Positions 14,055 through 24,869 of a stretch of 64,000 bases of DNA are shown piece by piece (within the stretch, counting starts at the first letter, position 1; the number at the start of each line of letters is the position of its first letter). The notes under the pieces were generated by a model. That model worked only from the letters and a program-made list of their open reading frames with translations. It was not told the origin of the DNA and did not search any database. Position numbers and translations under genes: made by a program. The DNA comes from Treponema sp. (lineage in GTDB: Bacteria > Spirochaetota > Spirochaetia > Treponematales > Breznakiellaceae): the NCBI GenBank assembly GCA_009781635.1, contig WQXU01000013.1, positions 1 through 64,000 on the forward strand, read 5' to 3'.

Positions 14055-15722
14055 TTAATTGTATATTCCGCTGATTGTAATATCTCCCCAGAGGCTGGAA
14101 TAAGACTCAAGTCCGCCGACAGCTTCTTCCCAGACATTCTGAAGTGAATAAGACTGTTTCTGAGTAACCATCCTGCCGCGGCTTTCTATCTGCAAAAGTT
14201 CAAGCTCTCCCCTGGAAAAGGCGATGCGGTTGTTGTCTAAATTGCCGAAATAATAATTTGCGGGATCCGGCGGGAACCTTCGTCCTTCAGCATCAGGCGC
14301 GCGAAGGGTAATTTGTACAGCTTCTGCACCCATTGCAGGATCAGCCGGCAGCCAGCCAAAACCGTCAATACAGAACTCCGTCCAATAATGGCGGATTGTC
14401 TGTCCGTTTCTGTCTATCAAAACGCCGGCGACAGGAATGCACGGAACTCCCGCAGCGCGCATCATTGCAGCGCAGAGCAGCGCCGTTCCGTATGAGTCTG
14501 TAATTTTGTTTTCCAGCGCAGCTGTGATACTTGAACCGGAGTAAGCGGTGTCTGTTATAAGCATATTCGCAATAATCCAGTCATATACCGCTTTTGCTTT
14601 TGCATGAGGATTTTGCTCCCTGCCGATAATAGTGTTTACTGCCGCTCTTATCTGCGGCTCCGCGCTTGGAATTAACGCAGTGCTTTGAGTGTACAGAGTA
14701 TTAAGGGGCGTTCTTTCCTGCCTTATGGAAAGCGGTCTTACTCCCGATTCAACTGTATATACTTCAACATTAAATGATAAATTGATGGATTGACTTGCTC
14801 CTGTTCCTAGATTGTCAAGTTTAAAAAGGCTTACTCCGCGGTGATTTTCCACGAAGGGTTCTGCACTGCGCGAAATAAGGCTGACATTCCTCTGCGATGA
14901 AGATTGAACAGGTTTTGGTACCCATAAATACAGGGTATTTGGCCTTGATGCATCAAGAACCCTGATATCAACCGAGTAAGTTACAATGTAACTGCGTTTA
15001 TCTGTAAAATTTTTATAACCTGGTTTGCCGCTGACATCAAAGAATACCGGCCTTGAACGGCCATGAGGTGTTCTTATCTCGATGTTTCCGCTGACAGCGC
15101 CGTCCGGCATGCGGATGCGTAATTCGCGGGCGCTCCACGACTCGTAACCCAGTTCAATCTCTGATACTTCTATAAATTCCGGCTCTCTTACCGCAAAGGG
15201 GTTAAACGAAGGCGATTCAAAATCCCAGGAAAAGAAAACGCCGGATGCCGCCTGTGTCCGTGACGAGTTTTCCCGCGATATTCCAAAGTTACTTCCGGTA
15301 ATAATAATTAATGAACCTGGTGCGCCGGTTTGCGGGTTTATTGATGCAATTCTCGGTTCAAGCCCCATCTCTTCGCCATCAGCAGGCCTTGGCACTGTTG
15401 CGGAATTTGAAAACAAGACGCCGTTACTTTTTTTTCCCCTTGTGTGTACATAGACAAGACCGGATTCTCCAAGTTCGGGGACTCTTACCATGATAAGTTC
15501 ATCCTGCCACAGATAGTACGACGAATTGGTAGGTGAAATGCCGGCAATCGTTACATGAGATTCTTCACGTGACGAGCCGAAATTGCTTCCTGTTAATGTG
15601 ATAACTTCACCCATTCTGCCGATTTTCGGATCGATAGATGTAATAACAGGCGTTTTGGCGCTGCAGGAAAAAAAGAGAGGCATTAATACAAACAAGAATA
15701 CTGGTAAAATTTTAATCGGCAT
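14055..15722 (-). CDS. Lipoprotein with TIG/IPT domains and a Ser-variant transglutaminase-like domain
   Basis: 555 residues from the ATG at 15722. A signal sequence ends in a relaxed spirochaetal lipobox, FFSC, with Cys20 as the lipid site. Two IPT/TIG immunoglobulin-like domains follow (PVITSIDPKIGRMGEVITLTG and a second beginning RIASINPQTGAPGSLIII), then a beta-rich region and a transglutaminase-like core (~360-480). In the core the position of the catalytic Cys is Ser410 (TDSYGTALLCAAMMRAAG), while His445 (RHYWTEF) and Asp461 (PADPAMG) are kept. It is the last gene of the ECF sigma operon and overlaps its predecessor by 11 bases. The frame is open to 15761, but that start lies deep in the upstream gene and would spoil the signal peptide. 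Substrate unknown. Confidence 0.78.
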   Translation of the reverse strand: MPIKILPVFLFVLMPLFFSCSAKTPVITSIDPKIGRMGEVITLTGSNFGSSREESHVTIAGISPTNSSYYLWQDELIMVRVPELGESGLVYVHTRGKKSNGVLFSNSATVPRPADGEEMGLEPRIASINPQTGAPGSLIIITGSNFGISRENSSRTQAASGVFFSWDFESPSFNPFAVREPEFIEVSEIELGYESWSARELRIRMPDGAVSGNIEIRTPHGRSRPVFFDVSGKPGYKNFTDKRSYIVTYSVDIRVLDASRPNTLYLWVPKPVQSSSQRNVSLISRSAEPFVENHRGVSLFKLDNLGTGASQSINLSFNVEVYTVESGVRPLSIRQERTPLNTLYTQSTALIPSAEPQIRAAVNTIIGREQNPHAKAKAVYDWIIANMLITDTAYSGSSITAALENKITDSYGTALLCAAMMRAAGVPCIPVAGVLIDRNGQTIRHYWTEFCIDGFGWLPADPAMGAEAVQITLRAPDAEGRRFPPDPANYYFGNLDNNRIAFSRGELELLQIESRGRMVTQKQSYSLQNVWEEAVGGLESYSSLWGDITISGIYN

Positions 15723-16221
15723 TATTATTGGCAGCCGTTTCTTCTGAAAGGGCAGTCTCACTGAATGGATTTACTGTAAGCATTATTTCTATTAATGAGC
15801 CAAGCTGATGCGATGCGCCAAGCGGGAAGAAATAAATTGGTTCATCAAAATCCATTGGAATTGTCTGTATCGAAGTATAATAACTGACGCCGCCTCTTGG
15901 ATCTTCAATCCAGATTTGCCCCTGCGCGACAAGAACATTGCCTTCGCGGCGGATAAAAGGAGTAAACTGCACAGCAACGACTACGTTTGAACCGACAAGC
16001 CTTATTCCCACCGGGCTGCCTGGTATTGCAATCCGTCTTTCAGATTCACTCCAGATTACATCCTCTTCATCTGTTATTACCCTTGCGCTGATATCCATGG
16101 TTAACGCGCGTCTTCTTAATCCCTGATTTATTTCATTTCTGGCAGATTGCTGTTCCTGGGCTTCAAGAATCATGCCTGATGCAAAAAATAAAATGCTGAC
16201 AAGACAAAAAGAACGAATCAT
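15712..16221 (-). CDS. Secreted protein of the ECF sigma operon, unknown function
   Basis: 169 residues. A signal peptide (MIRSFCLVSILFFASG, cleavage near LEAQ) precedes a domain that reads as beta-rich, with regularly alternating hydrophobic strands, and a short polar tail ending in Asn/Asp. I do not recognise a family. Its ATG follows the anti-sigma stop by a single base, and its 3' end overlaps the lipoprotein gene, so it is translationally coupled on both sides. By position it is a periplasmic partner of the TIG lipoprotein or of the stress sensed by the sigma system. Confidence 0.7.
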   Translation of the reverse strand: MIRSFCLVSILFFASGMILEAQEQQSARNEINQGLRRRALTMDISARVITDEEDVIWSESERRIAIPGSPVGIRLVGSNVVVAVQFTPFIRREGNVLVAQGQIWIEDPRGGVSYYTSIQTIPMDFDEPIYFFPLGASHQLGSLIEIMLTVNPFSETALSEETAANNNAD

Positions 16222-16222
16222 C

Positions 16223-16873
16223 CTATGGGTATCTCCTTGGCTGTTCTGCGTTTCGCTGGTAATCGGCAGCTCTGATTATTGCAGGCTCGCCTGCTCTTGC
16301 AAAATTCTTACTTTCCGGCAGCTTCAAAATGATGATGTCAGTACCGTCTGATGTTAAATACTGAAGGATGCCGCTTATGTCTGCAGCGGGAATGATTCCC
16401 GGTATTTCCTCTTCCGCAGCGATGATATCCAGTTTTTCGGTATTAGCCGTATTTCTGGCCATTACCCCGCTGTGAAGGAATGCTTCACTGCGAATCCAAA
16501 GCCCTGCTACAAGCATCAGGATAACAGCAGCAGCAGCAGCAGCCGGCAGAGGAATTGAAAGTCTGCGCCGCCATCCGTGCGTTCTTAACCGGCGTTTTTC
16601 TTCGATTCTGTGCCAGATTCTTTCCTTGGTTTCCTGCATTTCTTCTTCTGTATATGTGCGTTCTTCGGGAAGAAATGGTTCATCAATGACACGTTCTACA
16701 TATGTTCTTTTTTCTGAATAATCTTTTTTAAACAGTTTGTGAAGCCGGCTGAAATTTTCATATTTTTCTCTGCAAAGAGGGCAGATTTTAAAGTGGGCCT
16801 CCATTTTTTCTTTCCATGGAGAAGGCAGCTCCCCGTCTACATAGATTGATAAAATTTGCGGGTCAGGACACAT
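16223..16873 (-). CDS. Anti-sigma factor with zinc-finger (ZAS-type) domain
   Basis: 216 residues from ATG 16873, chosen because AAGGTGG sits five bases upstream and overlaps the sigma gene's stop codon. An N-terminal zf-HC2/ZAS domain carries the H-x3-C-x2-C motif (HFKICPLC) plus an upstream Cys2. A charged cytoplasmic linker follows, then one membrane segment (~120-142) that includes six alanines encoded by a (CAG)6 run read on the other strand, and a ~70-residue extracytoplasmic part. The design is that of a membrane-bound anti-sigma holding the ECF factor encoded immediately upstream until an envelope signal releases it. A longer frame opens at 16942 but would overlap the sigma gene. Confidence 0.85.
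   Translation of the reverse strand: MCPDPQILSIYVDGELPSPWKEKMEAHFKICPLCREKYENFSRLHKLFKKDYSEKRTYVERVIDEPFLPEERTYTEEEMQETKERIWHRIEEKRRLRTHGWRRRLSIPLPAAAAAAVILMLVAGLWIRSEAFLHSGVMARNTANTEKLDIIAAEEEIPGIIPAADISGILQYLTSDGTDIIILKLPESKNFARAGEPAIIRAADYQRNAEQPRRYP
16525..16542 (+). repeat. (CAG)6 trinucleotide run in the anti-sigma gene
   Basis: Six perfect CAG units, read as GCT on the coding strand, encode the poly-Ala start of the anti-sigma membrane segment. Gain or loss of a unit keeps the frame and would change the length of the membrane helix. Confidence 0.8.
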
Positions 16874-16883
16874 ACGTACCACC

Positions 16884-17495
16884 TTATACAAGCTTTCCTG
16901 CATGCTGTAATTCATCTGCAAGCAGTGCGGCAAGCCGCTCACGGGCTCTAAAAACCCGTACTTTCACATTTCCTTCGCTAATGCCAAGAACCTTGCCAAT
17001 TTCTTTATAGTTCATTTCAGCATATTCTTTTAGTATTAATACCATTCGTAAATTTTCCGGCAGCTTGTTAAGGGCGTTCTGCACTTCCTGGCTTGTTTCT
17101 TTCTTAACAAGCAATCCCTCTCCGGTTTCCTCCTGCCTGTGATCTTCCCTGAAAGCGCGCTGATACGCCTTTCGTTCCCTGTCCTTGCGTTTTGCATAGT
17201 TTAATGCGGCGTTTTTTACAACGCGGATTAACCAGTACTTCGCTTCTTCAGGATTTGGGAAAACCATGTTTCTTTCATATAGACGGAAGAAACTTTCCTG
17301 ACAAAGGTCTTCTGCCGCTTCACTTGAGTTGGTAACTCTGAAAGCCACTCTGAACAGAACCTGGAAGGTTGAATCATATAAGCGCTTGAATTCACGGTTA
17401 AACTCAACACCAGTTTTTAATACTGCCGGTGCCTGGCCTTCCATGCCTGCGGCTTTCGCGTCATCTTCCAACTGTTCCCCTTCTATATTAAACAA
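16884..17495 (-). CDS. ECF-type RNA polymerase sigma factor
   Basis: 203 residues. Sigma-70 region 2 (~35-105) includes AEDLCQESFFRLYE, and region 4 (~140-195) ends in a helix-turn-helix, MNYKEIGKVLGISEGNVKVR. No region 1 or 3 is present, as expected for extracytoplasmic-function sigma factors. The start is TTG 17495, with GGAG seven bases upstream. It lies 31 bases after cysS on the same strand and directly before its anti-sigma. It likely controls its own operon and other envelope genes. I did not find a clear -35 AAC-type ECF promoter before it, so basal transcription may come from cysS. Confidence 0.92.
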   Translation of the reverse strand: MFNIEGEQLEDDAKAAGMEGQAPAVLKTGVEFNREFKRLYDSTFQVLFRVAFRVTNSSEAAEDLCQESFFRLYERNMVFPNPEEAKYWLIRVVKNAALNYAKRKDRERKAYQRAFREDHRQEETGEGLLVKKETSQEVQNALNKLPENLRMVLILKEYAEMNYKEIGKVLGISEGNVKVRVFRARERLAALLADELQHAGKLV

Positions 17496-17526
17496 AATTT
17501 ATCTCCGATTGTTACATGGTGTATTT

Positions 17527-18948
17527 TTACAAATGTTTCCAGACAGTACCTGCAGGGCCGTCTTCCAGTATTATACCGCGTTCTTTTAGGCCTTGTCTTA
17601 TATTATCGGCTGCAGTAAAATCCTTTGCCTTTTTTGCTTCCGCCCGTTTTGCGATAAGTTCTTCAATTTCCTGCGTAAATTCCGTATTATCATGGTTTTT
17701 ACCGGCTATGATATCTTTAAACCCAAGCCCTAAAACCTCGTCCATTTTTAAAACAGCCGCAAGAGCGTCTTTTGATGCAGTTTCTTCCTTTAAAAGTCCC
17801 CATAATACAGCCAGTGCCCTTGGCGTAGAAAGATCATCCTCTATTGCCTTATCAAATGCTTCTATATATTTGATGATATTCTCTTCTTTAATTTCTGTTT
17901 CCTGCGTTCCGGATTTATCAGCTAATGCCTTTATTTTATCAATTAGTGATTTACGCGAGTTTTTTGCGCCTTTTAAACTGTCAAATGAAAACTGAAGCTG
18001 GCTTCTGTAATGTCCGCTCAAAAGGAAATAACGATAATCAAGCGGATCATAGCCTTCATCGACAAGGTTTTGCAGAGTAAGAAAGCTGCCCTTAGACTTT
18101 GAGATTTTTCCGTCGTTCATTACAAGAAATTCATTATGAAGCCAGTAATTCACCCAGGGTTTTACGCCTGCGGCAGCTTCGCTCTGCGCGATTTCATTGG
18201 TGTGGTGAATAGGAATATGATCGATTCCGCCTGCATGAATATCAAAATTTTCACCAAGGTATTTCATGCTCATTGCGGAGCATTCAATATGCCAGCCGGG
18301 ATAACCCTTTCCCCAAGGACTGTCCCATACAAGGGCCTGATTTTCAAATTTGCTTTTTGTAAACCAGAGTACAAAGTCACCTGGATTGCGTTTATTTTCA
18401 TCCTGCTGTATCCGCGCGCCAGCTTTAAGATCATCAAGCCGCAGCAGAGCAAGTTCGCCGTAAGAAGGAAATTTCGATATATCAAAGTAAAGATTTCCGC
18501 CTGCAATGTAAGTAAAACCATTTTCTTCTATTCTTTTAATTAACGCTATCATATCGGCGATATGTTCTGTTGCCTTGCAGACTACCGTAGGCCGCGTTAT
18601 ATTCAGTCTGTCTGTATCTTTAAAAAACGCCTGTGTGTAAAAATCTGCGATTTCAAGGACGCTTTTTCCCCTTTCTTCCGCTGTTTTTACCATTTTATCG
18701 TCGCCGCCATCGGCATCATCCGATAAATGGCCGACATCAGTGATATTCATAACATGATTAACAGTAAAACCTGCGTGCCGCAAAGAGCGAACCAGTATGT
18801 CGTGATGCACATAGGCGCGTAGATTTCCTATGTGCGCATAATTGTAGACAGTGGGCCCGCATCCATAAAAGCCAACAGCATTATTGCCGTCTTTAGGCTT
18901 AAAAAGCTGTTTTTCGCGTCCTAATGTGTTGTAAAACGTAAATGCCAT
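17527..18948 (-). CDS. cysS: Cysteinyl-tRNA synthetase
   Basis: 473 residues from ATG 18948. Class I synthetase with HIGN (39-42, the HIGH signature), the zinc ligands Cys30 in YGCGPTVY plus the WHIECSAMS and HHTNE motifs, and KISKS as the KMSKS loop. It charges tRNA-Cys, whose gene is also in this window at 11917. A GTG six bases upstream is in frame, but a TTGAAA/TATGCT promoter places the transcript start exactly on the ATG and excludes the GTG. The ECF sigma operon follows after 31 bases. Confidence 0.96.
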   Translation of the reverse strand: MAFTFYNTLGREKQLFKPKDGNNAVGFYGCGPTVYNYAHIGNLRAYVHHDILVRSLRHAGFTVNHVMNITDVGHLSDDADGGDDKMVKTAEERGKSVLEIADFYTQAFFKDTDRLNITRPTVVCKATEHIADMIALIKRIEENGFTYIAGGNLYFDISKFPSYGELALLRLDDLKAGARIQQDENKRNPGDFVLWFTKSKFENQALVWDSPWGKGYPGWHIECSAMSMKYLGENFDIHAGGIDHIPIHHTNEIAQSEAAAGVKPWVNYWLHNEFLVMNDGKISKSKGSFLTLQNLVDEGYDPLDYRYFLLSGHYRSQLQFSFDSLKGAKNSRKSLIDKIKALADKSGTQETEIKEENIIKYIEAFDKAIEDDLSTPRALAVLWGLLKEETASKDALAAVLKMDEVLGLGFKDIIAGKNHDNTEFTQEIEELIAKRAEAKKAKDFTAADNIRQGLKERGIILEDGPAGTVWKHL

Positions 18949-18954
18949 ATGCAC

Positions 18955-18996: not shown

Positions 18997-21692
18997 TTAT
19001 CCCAGGTAATCGGAAAGTCTTCTGTAGCATTGATTCACAATATGTTTTTTTGCGATATCAACATCATCGCCTGCCCACAGGATAGAAAGTCCGTCAATCA
19101 ATGTATCCAGGCTTGAAAGGCTCTCATTAAGGCTTGTATGGAAACCGCGGGAAGCGCGCAGCCAGTAATTTCCCTCTCCGTCTGTAAAAAGACCCAGAAA
19201 TCCCAAATCTTTTGAGTTCTTTTTCCATACAACTGGCTTTGCAAGATTATCAAGGTGTTTAAGAAGCGAAGAAAGCGAATTAATATTCCTGGAATCAAAA
19301 TTTTCTTTACGGGGCCATGCGCGCGAGAAAGCGCTTTCCGGATCGAGTGTCGGCGCAAGAGAAAAAATCAGATCCAGTTTTTCTCCGGCGAGCAGATTGA
19401 ATTGTTTTTTAACAATAATTGTTCCTTTTATTCCTTTATAAACAGTATCGCGCAAATTATTTCCGCCGGCAGACAGTTTATCGCTGATACGGGCAAGTTT
19501 TTCCCACGGAAGTAAAACAGTTTTTTTTCCTTTTACTGTAATAATTTCAAATATTTCGCTGTGTATCTTTATATTATTGGTAAAATCTCTTTCTTTTTTT
19601 ACTTTTGCCGGAATTAACTTCCCTGAAAATTTATTTTTTTGATATCCGTGTTCGGAAATTGAACGGGATTCGAATAATCCCGGCCTTATTCGGTTTAAAA
19701 CTGCCTTTGACAATGGAGAAACCGACATTGCATACATGCGGGAAGTGCGCACAATTTCTCCTGCTACTATAAACTGCGGATCTGCGCGGAACATTACAGA
19801 ACCAGGATGAATAATAATTTTATCTTCGGTTAGACTGCTGTATGAACCCATTTTACCTCTCGATCCCTCGCGCATGCATACAAATTGAATCATTCCGCGG
19901 CCAATACAGCATAGATAATCATCAATCTCGTCTGCAAAAAGCGGTTTATTCGCAGAGCGCTGTTTAGAAAGCACAGGAATCTTCATGTTAGCTATAATTT
20001 CTTCCAGCTGAGCTGTTACATTCAATATTTCTGCCATTGCGCGATCATCAAGGTAATTTTTTTTGCAGAATTTAGCTTTGTTGTTTGAATCGTTATACTG
20101 TTTAAACAGTTTGAGATATGAAACAAAATCGCCGTTATCATCACGGAAACTGTGATGCGCCTGTCTTGCATCCGTTTCTTCTCCCGGCGGAAGAATATAC
20201 GGGCTTTGTGTAGATAAAAATGCCGAAGCAATGATTGTTTCACGTATTATACCGGGATAATGCATTATTGCTTCAACAATAATGCGTGATTGCCGCGGAG
20301 CAAGCGGGAATTCAGTCATTAATTTACCGATATTTGACAAGCTGCGGTCTTCTTCAAGCGCATCAAGCAGATTTAATGTTTCAATTCCGCCGATTAATCC
20401 TTCTTTTTCCGGCGCTGCGATAAAATCAAAATCTTCAAAATTAGTAATGCCAAGATCCGCCATTCTTAAGATAACTTCCGATAAATCTGTGCGGAAAATT
20501 TCTTCTGTTGTATATAATGATCGATTTTCAAAATCCTTGCGCGTATACAGCCTGTAACATGTTCCTTCCCGCGTGCGTCCGGCTCTTCCCTTGCGCTGAT
20601 TCGCCGATGCAATCGATATTGGCGATTCAATCAGACTTGATGTAAATGTTTTTGGATTATACCAGTTTAATTTTGCAAGTCCGCTGTCGATTACAACGGT
20701 GATTCCGTCGATTGTTACCGATGTTTCAGCGATATTTGTTGAAATAACGACTTTTGTTTTGCCTTTTGGCGCAATTTCAAAAACTTTTTCCTGTTCTTCT
20801 TTTCCAAGCCTGCCGTATAACGGAACAAGATGCAAATATTTTCCGGCAGGACACATTGAAAGCCTGTTCATGCATTCTTTGATCATCTTTTCGCCTGAAA
20901 GAAAAATTAATATATCACCTGCTTTGGAAACCCTGCCTTCTGAGAGTTCCTTGTTTTCGCTTATGAAACGCGTGGTAATTGCCTCTATTTTCATTAAAAT
21001 CGCTTCATCTGCGCTGATATTTGAATAATTTTTGTCTTTCTGCTCTTTGTTTTCCTTTTTTTGATCCCTGAAATCTGATCCATGCTCTCTTAATACCGGA
21101 TCGTAAATCATTATCACAGGAAAACGCTGCGCTTCTATCTTTACAATAGGGCAATTATTAAAGTATTCGGAGAAAACTTCGGCATTAATTGTTGCAGAAG
21201 AAATTATAACTTTGAAATCTTTGGGCTTTCAAGCGTTCTTTTCAGCAAACCAAGGATAAAATCGATGTTTAAACTTCTTTCATGAGCTTCATCAACAACC
21301 AGAAGACTGTATTTAGACAGCCATGGATCGAGTTTCATTTCCTGAAGCAGTATTCCGTCTGTCATAATTTTTATTTTGGTTTCATGATTTGTCATGTCGG
21401 CGAATCTCATCTTGTAACCTATGAGTCCGGGGATTACAGTTGAGCATTGACGCGCAATAAACTCGCTTACAGATACTGCCGCTATGCGCCGCGGCTGAGT
21501 TACACCAATGATTCCGTTTTGCGCATAGCCTGCTTCGTAAAGTATAACAGGAAGCTGCGTTGTTTTTCCTGAACCTGTCGGGCTCTCAACAACGAGCGTC
21601 TGATTATTTTTTAACATTGATAAAATTTTTTCTTGATTTTTGTAGACAGGAAGTTCAATATAGTTCATAATATTTATCATAATGACTTGCAT
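18997..21692 (-). pseudogene. hrpA: DEAH-box RNA helicase HrpA, frameshifted
   Basis: Two frames together give one HrpA-like helicase of about 890 residues. The first piece (21692-21204; preferred start ATG 21668) has the P-loop ESPTGSGKTTQ, TQPRR and VVDEAHERS. The second piece, open through 21117 to 18997, has motif V and VI segments such as ISTNIAETSVTIDG and NQRKGRAGRT plus the C-terminal helicase region. Read in the -1 frame from about 21226, the joining bases encode DFKVIISSATINAEVFSEYF, which restores motif III (SAT) with no gap. The break is at C CCA AAG, so it is a one-base loss in an A-run, a sequencing error, or a programmed -1 frameshift. Neither piece alone would be a working helicase. 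cysS follows downstream on the same strand. Confidence 0.8.
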
Positions 21693-21716: not shown

Positions 21717-21737
21717 AAATACATATGGAGGATGTTA

Positions 21738-24700
21738 ATGTCTAAACAAAAAAACGTTTACTTCTTTGGTAATGGTAAAGCTGAAGGAGATGCAAAGATG
21801 AAATTTGTTTTAGGCGGCAAGGGCGCCAATCTTGCCGAGATGACTAATCTTGGAATTCCGGTTCCGCCAGGCTTTACAATTTCTACAGATGTATGCGCTG
21901 CTTATTATGAAAATAAGAACAAGTATCCTGCAGGATTAAAAGAAGAAGTAGAAGCAGGACTTAAAAAACTGGAAACAGTTATGAAAAAGAAACTTGGAGA
22001 TCCAGGTGATCCGCTTTTGGTTTCTGTTCGTTCAGGAGCCGCAGCTTCAATGCCGGGCATGATGGATACAATCCTGAATCTTGGTATGAGTGATAAAGCG
22101 GTTAAGGGTCTTTCAGATAAGACCGGAAATCCGCGGTTTGCATGGGATGCTTACAGGCGTTTCATTCAGATGTTCGGTGATGTTGTTATGGGCGTTGATC
22201 ATGATCATTTTGAAAATGCCCTTGCAGAAATGAAAAAAAATAAAAAAATTGAACTTGATACAGACCTTACAGCAGCAGATTTAGAAAAACTGGTCGATCA
22301 GTATAAACAAATCGTTAAAAAACATTCCGGCAAAGATTTTCCGCAAAACCCGCTTGATCAGCTTTGGGGTTCGATAAATGCGGTTTTCGGCTCATGGATG
22401 AATGAAAGAGCTGTTAAATACCGTCAGATCGAGAATATAAAAGGGCTTATAGGAACAGCTGTTAATATTCAATCTATGGTATTCGGCAATTTCGGCGATG
22501 ATTCAGGAACAGGCGTATGTTTCAGCCGCGATCCTTCAACAGGTATCAATGAATTTTACGGCGAGTATCTGATGAATGCGCAGGGTGAAGATGTTGTCGC
22601 AGGTATCAGGACTCCGGAAAGAATTTCAACTCTGGAAAAAAAGAATCCTGTTATTTATAAACAGCTTATTTCCATTAAAAACAAACTGGAAAAACATTTT
22701 AAAGATATGCAGGATATGGAATTCACTGTTCAGCAGGGAATTTTATACATTCTGCAGACGCGCAACGGCAAACGCGCCGGTACAGCTGCTGTAAAATGCG
22801 CTGTAGATATGGTAGCTGAAGGTCTAATCGATAAAAATACTGCTATTATGCGTGTAACGCCGGGCCATCTTGATCAGCTTCTCCATCCGATGATTGATGC
22901 AAAGGCTGCAAAAAACGCCAAATCCATTACAAAGGGATTAAATGCATCGCCGGGCGCTGCCTGCGGCAGAATTGTTTACACTGCAAAGGACGCTGAAAGC
23001 TGGCATGAAAGAGGCGAAAAAGTAATGCTTGTCCGCAAGGAAACATGTCCTGAAGATATCGGCGGAATGGTTGTTTCGCAGGGTATTCTTACTTCAACCG
23101 GCGGAAAAACAAGCCATGCGGCAGTTGTTGCGCGCGGTATGGGCACTCCCTGTATTGTTGGCGCAAAAAGCGTTCTGTTACACAGCGACGGAACAGTTGA
23201 TATCGGCGGAAAGATATATAAAGAAGGCGACTGGATAACAATTGACGGTTCTTCAGGCGAAGTATATGAAGGAAAAATGCCGCTTGTTTCTCCGGAAATC
23301 TCCAGAGACATGGAAACCTTCCTTAAATGGTGTGATGAAGTGCGTTCGGGCAGCGTTCGCGGCAAGGTAAAAGGTTTCGATGTAAGAACCAATGCCGATC
23401 AGCCGGAAGATGCAAGACGCGCGTTTGATTTCGGCGCTCAGGGCATAGGTCTTTGCCGCACAGAGCACATGTTCTTCGAAAAAGACAAGCTTGTTCACTT
23501 CCGCGCGATGATTCTCTCGGAAACAGAAGAAGAGAGAAAAATCCAGTTAAAGAAGATTCTTCCGTTACAACAGAAGGATTTCTTTGGCATATTCAAGGAG
23601 ATGGGAGGCCGCCCTGTAACAATAAGGCTTTTAGATCCTCCTCTTCATGAATTTGTTCCCCATACAAAAGAAGATATTGCAGAACTTGCAGCTCACTTAA
23701 ATATTGACGAAGAAAAATTATCAATTAAAATCGGCACTCTTGTTGAAAGCAACCCAATGCTGGGACATCGCGGCTGCCGTCTTGCAGTTACTTTCCCTGA
23801 AATTTATGACATGCAGGTTGAAGCAATAGCCCTTGCAGCGGCAGAGTGCGCAAAGCAAAAGATTCCGGTGAATCCGGAAATAATGATTCCGCTGATTGTT
23901 ACCTCAAGAGAACTTAAATTCCTTCGCCCCAATGCTGAAAAAGTACTTGAAAGGGTGTTCAATGCAGCAGGCGTTAAAGTTCCCGTTAAAATCGGCACAA
24001 TGATCGAAGTTCCCCGCGCTGCGATTCGCGCAGGCGGTATTGCAGATTTTGCAGACTTTTTCAGTTTTGGAACAAACGATCTTACGCAAATGACTTTTGG
24101 CTTTAGCCGCGACGATGTCGCATCGTTCCTGCCGATTTATTTGCAAAAAGGTATTCTTGATGACGAGCCATTCCAGACAATCGACCAAAACGGCGTTGGA
24201 GGGCTTATAGAACATGCAATTTTAGAAGGAAGATTAGTAAAACCGGATCTTAAAATTGGGATCTGCGGAGAGCACGGCGGCGATCCTGCTTCTATAGAAT
24301 TTTGCTATAGAGCCGGGTTTAGCTATGTATCATGTTCACCATTCCGGGTGCCATTAGCACGCCTTGCAGGCGCGCAAGCGGTAATCAAAAATTCCGGAAA
24401 GAACATAATGGGAGGGGAGTCAGGTAAGACAAAACCTGCCACTGCCAGGGTGAAAGGCAGTAAAAAACCTGTTAAGGGGGGCAAGAAGATGGCAGTAACA
24501 TCTGCAAAAAAACCCGCAGCGAAAAAGGCAGCTGCAAAGAAACCGGCAGCTAAAAAGGTAGCTGCAAAAAAACCCGCAGCGAAAAAAGTAGCTGCAAAGA
24601 AACCGGCAGCTAAGAAAGTAGTTGCAAAAAAAGTTGGAGCAAAAAAACCTGCAGCAAAGAAAGCCACCGTAAAGAAAGTTGGCGCTAAGAAACCGGCAGC

Positions 24701-24869
24701 GAAGAAAGTAGCTGCAAAGAAACCTGCAGCAAAGAAAGTAGCTGCAAAGAAACCGGCAGCGAAGAAAGTAGCTGCAAAGAAACCTGCAGCAGCAAAAAAA
24801 CCTGCAGCAGCAAAAAAACCCGCAGTTAAGAAAGCTGCGGCGCCAAAAGCCGTCACTGTAACTATCTAA
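21738..24869 (+). CDS. ppdK: Pyruvate phosphate dikinase with histone-H1-like C-terminal tail
   Basis: 1043 residues. The first ~885 are a complete PPDK: ATP-grasp domain (start [18 protein letters not shown]), swivelling phosphohistidine domain ([13 protein letters not shown], His460) and PEP/pyruvate barrel ending in the catalytic Cys motif [12 protein letters not shown]. It interconverts pyruvate, ATP, Pi and PEP, AMP, PPi. After this the protein runs on for ~155 residues of Lys, Ala and Pro repeats (units like [10 protein letters not shown]), like bacterial and eukaryotic H1-type histones. The frame is unbroken. GGAGG lies six bases before ATG 21738, so that ATG, not 21732, is the start. 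An internal ATG at 24489 could yield the tail alone. A strong terminator follows, and the gene is monocistronic. Confidence 0.92.
24508..24840 (+). repeat. Imperfect tandem repeats encoding the Lys/Ala tail
   Basis: Repeated units such as GCTGCAAAGAAACCGGCAGC and GCAGCGAAGAAAGTA recur in frame about a dozen times with synonymous changes, encoding KKPAAKK/KKVAAKK. Such repeats are prone to length change by slippage or recombination while keeping the frame. Confidence 0.85.

Follow-up and report, generated by a model that had tools for sequence, protein, structure and literature searches.

A four-gene operon of Treponema sp. as a candidate envelope-stress unit of the class Spirochaetia

Within a 64,000-nucleotide stretch of a Treponema sp. 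genome (assembly GCA_009781635.1, contig WQXU01000013.1, positions 1 to 64,000; hereafter the window), four adjoining genes on the minus strand (14055-17495) encode an extracytoplasmic function (ECF) sigma factor, a zinc-finger membrane anti-sigma factor, a secreted protein and a protein with two TIG domains and a transglutaminase-like core (TIG/TG protein). With a probability of roughly one half, we propose that they represent an ancient envelope-stress unit of Spirochaetia built on the sigma factor and its anti-sigma factor, in which the secreted protein would act as an RseB-like co-regulator and the TIG/TG protein as a pseudo-transglutaminase binder, and whose operon would drive itself. The gene order, a promoter-like element, the loss of a catalytic cysteine, the co-variation of the anti-sigma tail with the secreted gene and the predicted folds are read from the sequence; binding, inhibition, autoregulation, the ligand and proteolysis are what the model adds to them.

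A scan of 84,980 species for the secreted protein returned 80 loci, mainly from termite-gut Treponema assemblies, with the order cysS-sigma-anti-sigma-secreted-TIG/TG and usually an amino acid kinase gene after it. Sigma was present in 79 of these loci, anti-sigma in all 80 and TIG/TG in 78, and cysS stood upstream of sigma in 73, as it does across the class. The order from cysS to TIG/TG recurs in about 30 other family-level groups (coded f2, f5, f10 and so on; "Treponema family", "T. pallidum-like" and "Borrelia-like" are labels of our own inference), and because of these counts and the recurrence in distant families it lies far beyond chance. Of 150 genomes of the window's family, many of them incomplete, 119 yielded the TIG/TG protein and 136 the secreted protein. 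Outside this family, the secreted protein was found in several further families of the class, but no Treponema-family genome had it. The TIG/TG protein occurs in almost all Treponema-family genomes as well as in Borrelia-like genomes, and within the class an anti-sigma profile matches 326 of the 395 genomes and 123 of the 133 genera. Regions read directly showed four states. Most families have the full four-gene order. The Treponema family and f10 have sigma-anti-sigma-TIG/TG but lack the secreted gene. Only sigma-anti-sigma occurs in f12, f53, f54, f63 and one T. pallidum-like genome of 1.14 Mb, and Borrelia-like genomes have TIG/TG by itself, placed after cysS. In some genera of the window's family the operon is split, the TIG/TG gene having been lost or moved, and sigma, anti-sigma and the secreted gene remain together. 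By these gene maps, the module spans almost the whole class, with some losses. The recurrence supports the self-contained sensing and response unit that had been suggested in a preliminary description of this DNA, and the refuting condition named there, absence of the downstream pair beside the sigma pair in relatives, was examined and did not refute it.

Furthermore, the genes are tightly coupled. All four open reading frames were confirmed, and together with the domain matches they agree with the make-up and order described earlier; the gaps of 10, 1 and -11 bases given there are likewise correct for starts at 16873 (anti-sigma), 16221 (secreted) and 15722 (TIG/TG). Median gaps among the relatives' loci are -11, -4 and -4; sigma and anti-sigma, 10 bases apart in the window, overlap by 11 in most relatives. 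The overlaps, together with the ECF-type promoter-like site discussed below, make co-expression of the four genes likely. It could be argued that these genes, lying beside cysS and the amino acid kinase gene, were merely never separated and have little functional coupling, and cysS (17527-18954, minus; tRNA-synt_1e E 7e-98), an unrelated housekeeping gene that serves here as upstream synteny anchor outside the module, does belong to the same conserved order. However, idle neighbours would not be expected to overlap at their starts and stops, to keep a promoter-like site at sigma throughout the class or to co-vary as the anti-sigma tail and the secreted gene do, and we regard such inherited synteny as highly improbable.

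This co-variation concerns the end of the membrane anti-sigma factor (16223-16873, minus), which combines an N-terminal zinc motif (C2-H27-C31-C34), one transmembrane segment at about residues 108-126 and a short periplasmic tail. Its Pfam zf-HC2 match (E 7.6e-4, 20.0 bits) lies slightly below the 22.2-bit cut-off; M1 C2 P3, H27, C31 and C34, equivalent to an Hx3Cx2C motif with an upstream Cys, are invariant in 33 aligned rows, and judged by these features the protein is an ordinary member of the zinc-finger (zf-HC2/ZAS) family. Its sequence varies in the middle and is conserved over the last 45 residues and in the zinc motif. The conserved C-terminal tail (residues 162-205; 16259-16390, minus; ending in IILKLPESKNFARAGEPAIIRAADY) takes the form hydrophobic strand-LP...F..xGEPxII(K/R) in the comparison between groups, and it is present in every genome with the secreted gene, whereas without that gene it is absent or decayed. 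In a first set of genomes, a tail profile separated the two, as 30 genomes with the secreted gene scored at least 3.1 bits and 22 without it at most 0.7 bits. In addition, on a tree of sigma and cysS with 68 rows, the state of the secreted gene changes at three points, and each of the lineages concerned (f2, f10 and f12/f53/f54/f63) is without the tail. Four rows without the secreted gene match a loose tail pattern, by eye at unrelated positions. The tail was still kept in 12 genomes of the first set that we read with the TIG/TG gene lost or located elsewhere, and hence it tracks the secreted protein and not the TIG/TG protein. As a separate observation, a lineage devoid of both the secreted and the TIG/TG gene (L309-L313 and L376-L378 in f12; L369 in f54) carries an anti-sigma factor whose conserved tail is a different one, LEEIL.YLD.KGY.V.V..KGI.PL, which looks as though the secreted protein had been replaced by some other partner.

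The secreted protein itself (15712-16221, minus) has a signal-peptide-like N-terminus and is predicted to be all-beta (AlphaFold2 model, predicted local distance difference test score, pLDDT, 86). Neither it nor any of 51 relatives scanned singly matched Pfam or NCBIfam, in line with the earlier "unknown family", and we treat it as a new family. Its co-variation with the anti-sigma tail suggests an RseB-like partner of that tail and hence a part of the signalling complex, rather than an "output", as which both downstream genes had been described. Of other relationships of this protein, a link to secretins is a weak lead only (top rows in VIA, Z 9.5, root-mean-square deviation (rmsd) 4.3; Foldseek TM score ~0.3; no match to Pfam Secretin), and a profile match to factor XIII (E 0.014) was too weak to be used.

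The fourth gene (14055-15722, minus; ATG at 15722, with a longer GTG frame from 15761) encodes the TIG/TG lipoprotein, which matches TIG over two stretches (E 9.5e-18) and Transglut_core (E 2e-16). Its first TIG/IPT domain (PF01833, residues 38-116; 15414-15650, minus) has a fold match to the TIG domain of CGTase (Z ~14), and its C-terminal half shares the fold of 3isr, a transglutaminase-like protein of Cytophaga hutchinsonii (Z 20.5, rmsd 3.6, 253 residues). The transglutaminase-like core named in the preliminary description (PF01841, residues 374-475; 14337-14642, minus) thus stands as a fold but, with its nucleophile absent throughout the class, is implausible as an active enzyme. In the window's copy, Ser stands where the catalytic Cys would be (residue 423 of the 568-residue frame; 14493-14495, minus), with the other triad residues, His458 (14388-14390, minus) and Asp474 (14340-14342, minus), retained. 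Over 46 rows of the family, this column holds Pro (19), Ser (17), Ala (6), His (2), Ile (1) or Thr (1), and the His and the Asp are kept in 46/46 each; more distant operon-linked copies, including Treponema-like and Borrelia-like ones, have Ser, Ala, Pro, Thr, Val or Gly and in no case Cys. Another residue takes the place of the catalytic His in f5, in f13 and in one copy from f11 (L157). Ten TIG/TG or transglutaminase relatives that lie outside the operon, taken from these genomes or from further classes of the phylum, served as alignment controls, and all show Cys-His-Asp in the same alignment. In an independent hidden Markov model alignment the Cys of 3isr falls in the column where the operon family has Ser, Ala or Pro. 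The AlphaFold model (pLDDT 82) places the residue at this position at a helix start. From these alignments, the domain is a conserved pseudoenzyme, with a transglutaminase fold and the nucleophile Cys lost in every operon-linked copy read. An active transglutaminase or cysteine peptidase was rejected, since the nucleophile is missing while the alignment controls retain it. Proteins from other classes of the phylum (L223, L224) are TIG-transglutaminases with a full Cys-His-Asp triad and no adjoining ECF sigma in the stretches read; such proteins are possibly active cousins of the pseudoenzyme.

With respect to location, the lipobox Cys is invariant in 46/46 rows of the window's family, a lipoprotein signal, whereas outside this family that Cys is absent and a plain transmembrane anchor forms the N-terminus of the TIG/TG protein, so that in most groups the protein would face the periplasm at the inner membrane. 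The earlier label of a "surface-type lipoprotein" was therefore dropped, as a surface location is unreadable from sequence.

Two other roles for the downstream genes need to be weighed here. Both could be mere outputs, that is, envelope proteins that sigma induces to repair the cell wall or stiffen it, with no part in sensing. Their downstream position would fit, as would the effector-like behaviour of the TIG/TG gene, which survives without sigma in Borrelia-like genomes and moves off the operon in several genera; yet an anti-sigma tail conserved only in the presence of the secreted gene, the adherence of that gene to sigma and anti-sigma when the operon splits, and a TIG/TG domain without its nucleophile argue otherwise, and we consider this explanation doubtful. 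Alternatively, the pseudo-transglutaminase might be the main sensor, its dead groove binding a cell-wall peptide or polymer and signalling directly to the anti-sigma factor, with the secreted protein as an accessory. The persistence of the triad His and Asp and the core motif despite the class-wide loss of Cys is what one would expect of a binding groove, and the TIG/TG gene accompanies sigma and anti-sigma in f2 and f10, which are without the secreted gene. However, several f1 genera have no TIG/TG gene or have it elsewhere, and sigma, anti-sigma, the secreted gene and the tail persist there; as the tail does not track the TIG/TG protein, a main sensor of this kind seems unlikely.

The sigma factor (16884-17495, minus) matches Sigma70_r2 (E 2.6e-13, residues 39-106) and r4_2 (E 9.8e-18, residues 136-188) in Pfam, with a linker of about 30 residues and no other sigma domains. 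ECF (group IV) factors are defined by sigma2 and sigma4 regions only, with a linker of less than 50 residues (PMC8103513), and by domain content and the anti-sigma factor encoded directly alongside, this protein is an ordinary member of that group. Just upstream lies a promoter-like element, TGTAAC-N15-TTGTTT (17490-17516, minus; -35 at 17516-17511, -10 at 17495-17490). TG[TC]AAC was present at this place in 70 of 78 family loci scanned, with identical spacing in 63; the sigma genes of f2 (the T. pallidum-like genome included), f5, f7, f8, f9, f11 and f13 have the element as well, and a pattern match located it in 40 of another 45 regions. ECF systems usually show AAC in the -35 and CGT in the -10 region, a co-transcribed anti-sigma gene and autoregulation (PMC8103513). 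Here, the -35 AAC agrees, whereas the -10 region reads TGTT and not CGT; the spacing and the AAC core would fit an ECF promoter. The presence of the site upstream of sigma in most genomes across the class suggests that sigma autoregulates its own operon. Because TTG 17495 overlaps the -10 element, sigma more probably starts at TTG 17471; a start at 17495 is also doubtful as the site is out of frame with the start used in some relatives. In several families (L159, L162, L164, L165, L157), the sigma start codon lies a few bases past the -10 region, which suggests a leaderless sigma transcript, and in one termite-gut treponeme (L082) the TGTAAC-N-TTGTTT element is duplicated in tandem upstream of sigma.

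Taken together, we envisage the envelope-stress unit as follows. At rest, the cytoplasmic zinc motif of the anti-sigma factor would keep sigma at the inner membrane. The secreted all-beta protein would dock in the periplasm onto the conserved C-terminal tail and, as a co-regulator like RseB on RseA, might set the timing of anti-sigma release or cutting. In the same periplasmic space, the membrane- or lipid-anchored TIG-TIG-pseudo-transglutaminase would perform no chemistry; its old substrate groove and TIG domains most likely bind an envelope polymer or peptide, making it either a second input or a structural envelope output. Freed sigma would then drive its own operon from the TGTAAC-N15-TTGTT site, giving positive feedback.

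Several results weigh against this proposal. Borrelia-like genomes retain the TIG/TG protein without sigma or anti-sigma, and the protein therefore has a role outside sigma signalling. None of the 51 members of the secreted family matched an RseB/MucB model up to E 10, and fold matches were weak, with several LolA chains in Foldseek at E ~0.01-0.07 and TM scores of only ~0.3. In a second set of genomes the tail-profile scores overlapped slightly (2.4 with the secreted gene against 6.2 without), and since three independent losses cannot reach significance, the co-variation is a strong suggestion and not proof. The promoter pattern is in no genome-wide excess (4 occurrences against 3 for a reversed-pattern control; 23 against 19 with one mismatch), so that a narrow sigma regulon is possible. 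A broad regulon predicted by this pattern was rejected, as there was no excess over the control and the genes downstream of it offered no convincing target.

A more specific version would have a periplasmic complex, comprising the secreted protein on the anti-sigma tail and the pseudo-transglutaminase as ligand-binding receptor, control the ECF sigma throughout the class, a dead enzyme having been recruited to sensing; Borrelia would have kept the receptor after losing sigma, and T. pallidum sigma after losing the receptor. We put this forward tentatively, as possible but short of probable.

The proposed unit is reminiscent of RpoE-RseA-RseB of E. coli, where RseB is encoded in the rpoE operon and binds the periplasmic domain of RseA (PMC8103513). 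Both have an ECF sigma, a single-pass membrane anti-sigma factor and an operon-encoded exported protein that sits, in our case putatively, on the periplasmic part of the anti-sigma factor, and autoregulation is likely here too. Unlike that system, the spirochaete anti-sigma factor carries a zinc motif (zf-HC2), the secreted protein matches no MucB/RseB model and the fourth gene encodes a TIG-pseudo-transglutaminase.

Among spirochaetes, TP0092 (sigma-24, RpoE) has been termed the only ECF sigma of T. pallidum (PMC7309211). The 1.14-Mb Treponema-family genome, which we take to be T. pallidum with TP0092 as its sigma gene, shows the same cysS-sigma-anti-sigma order and promoter-like site, but lacks the secreted and TIG/TG genes and has an unrelated anti-sigma tail. 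For Borrelia burgdorferi, BB0600 was reported with a CGTase domain (PMC2845121), which fits a TIG fold. Borrelia-like genomes carry, directly after cysS, a transmembrane-anchored TIG protein with a weak transglutaminase core, presumably BB0600; unlike in the operon, it stands alone between cysS and glyA, with no sigma, anti-sigma or secreted gene. We found no paper linking ECF, spirochaetes and transglutaminase. If our proposal is true, the ECF sigma of syphilis-type treponemes, the TIG protein that Borrelia-like genomes keep as an orphan and the four-gene operon of most other Spirochaetia would all go back to one ancestral envelope-sensing unit, and two poorly understood genes would share an origin that can be tested. 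The proposal would also add a pseudo-transglutaminase conserved across the class and a new family of secreted proteins for which a specific docking site is predicted, and make the signal input of ECF factors in spirochaetes testable in a treponeme that is cultivable and harmless.

Two further features were noticed elsewhere in the window. An apparent frameshift divides a DEAH-type helicase gene (18997-21692, minus) into two frames, 21204-21692 and 18997-21117; both halves occur in order nearby in relatives such as L064, L067 and L068, and the split reflects either an assembly error or a recent pseudogene. Finally, a pyruvate phosphate dikinase (21732-24869, plus) bears a C-terminal tail of about 130 residues, starting at about 24447, that is rich in Lys, Ala and Pro and resembles histone H1.

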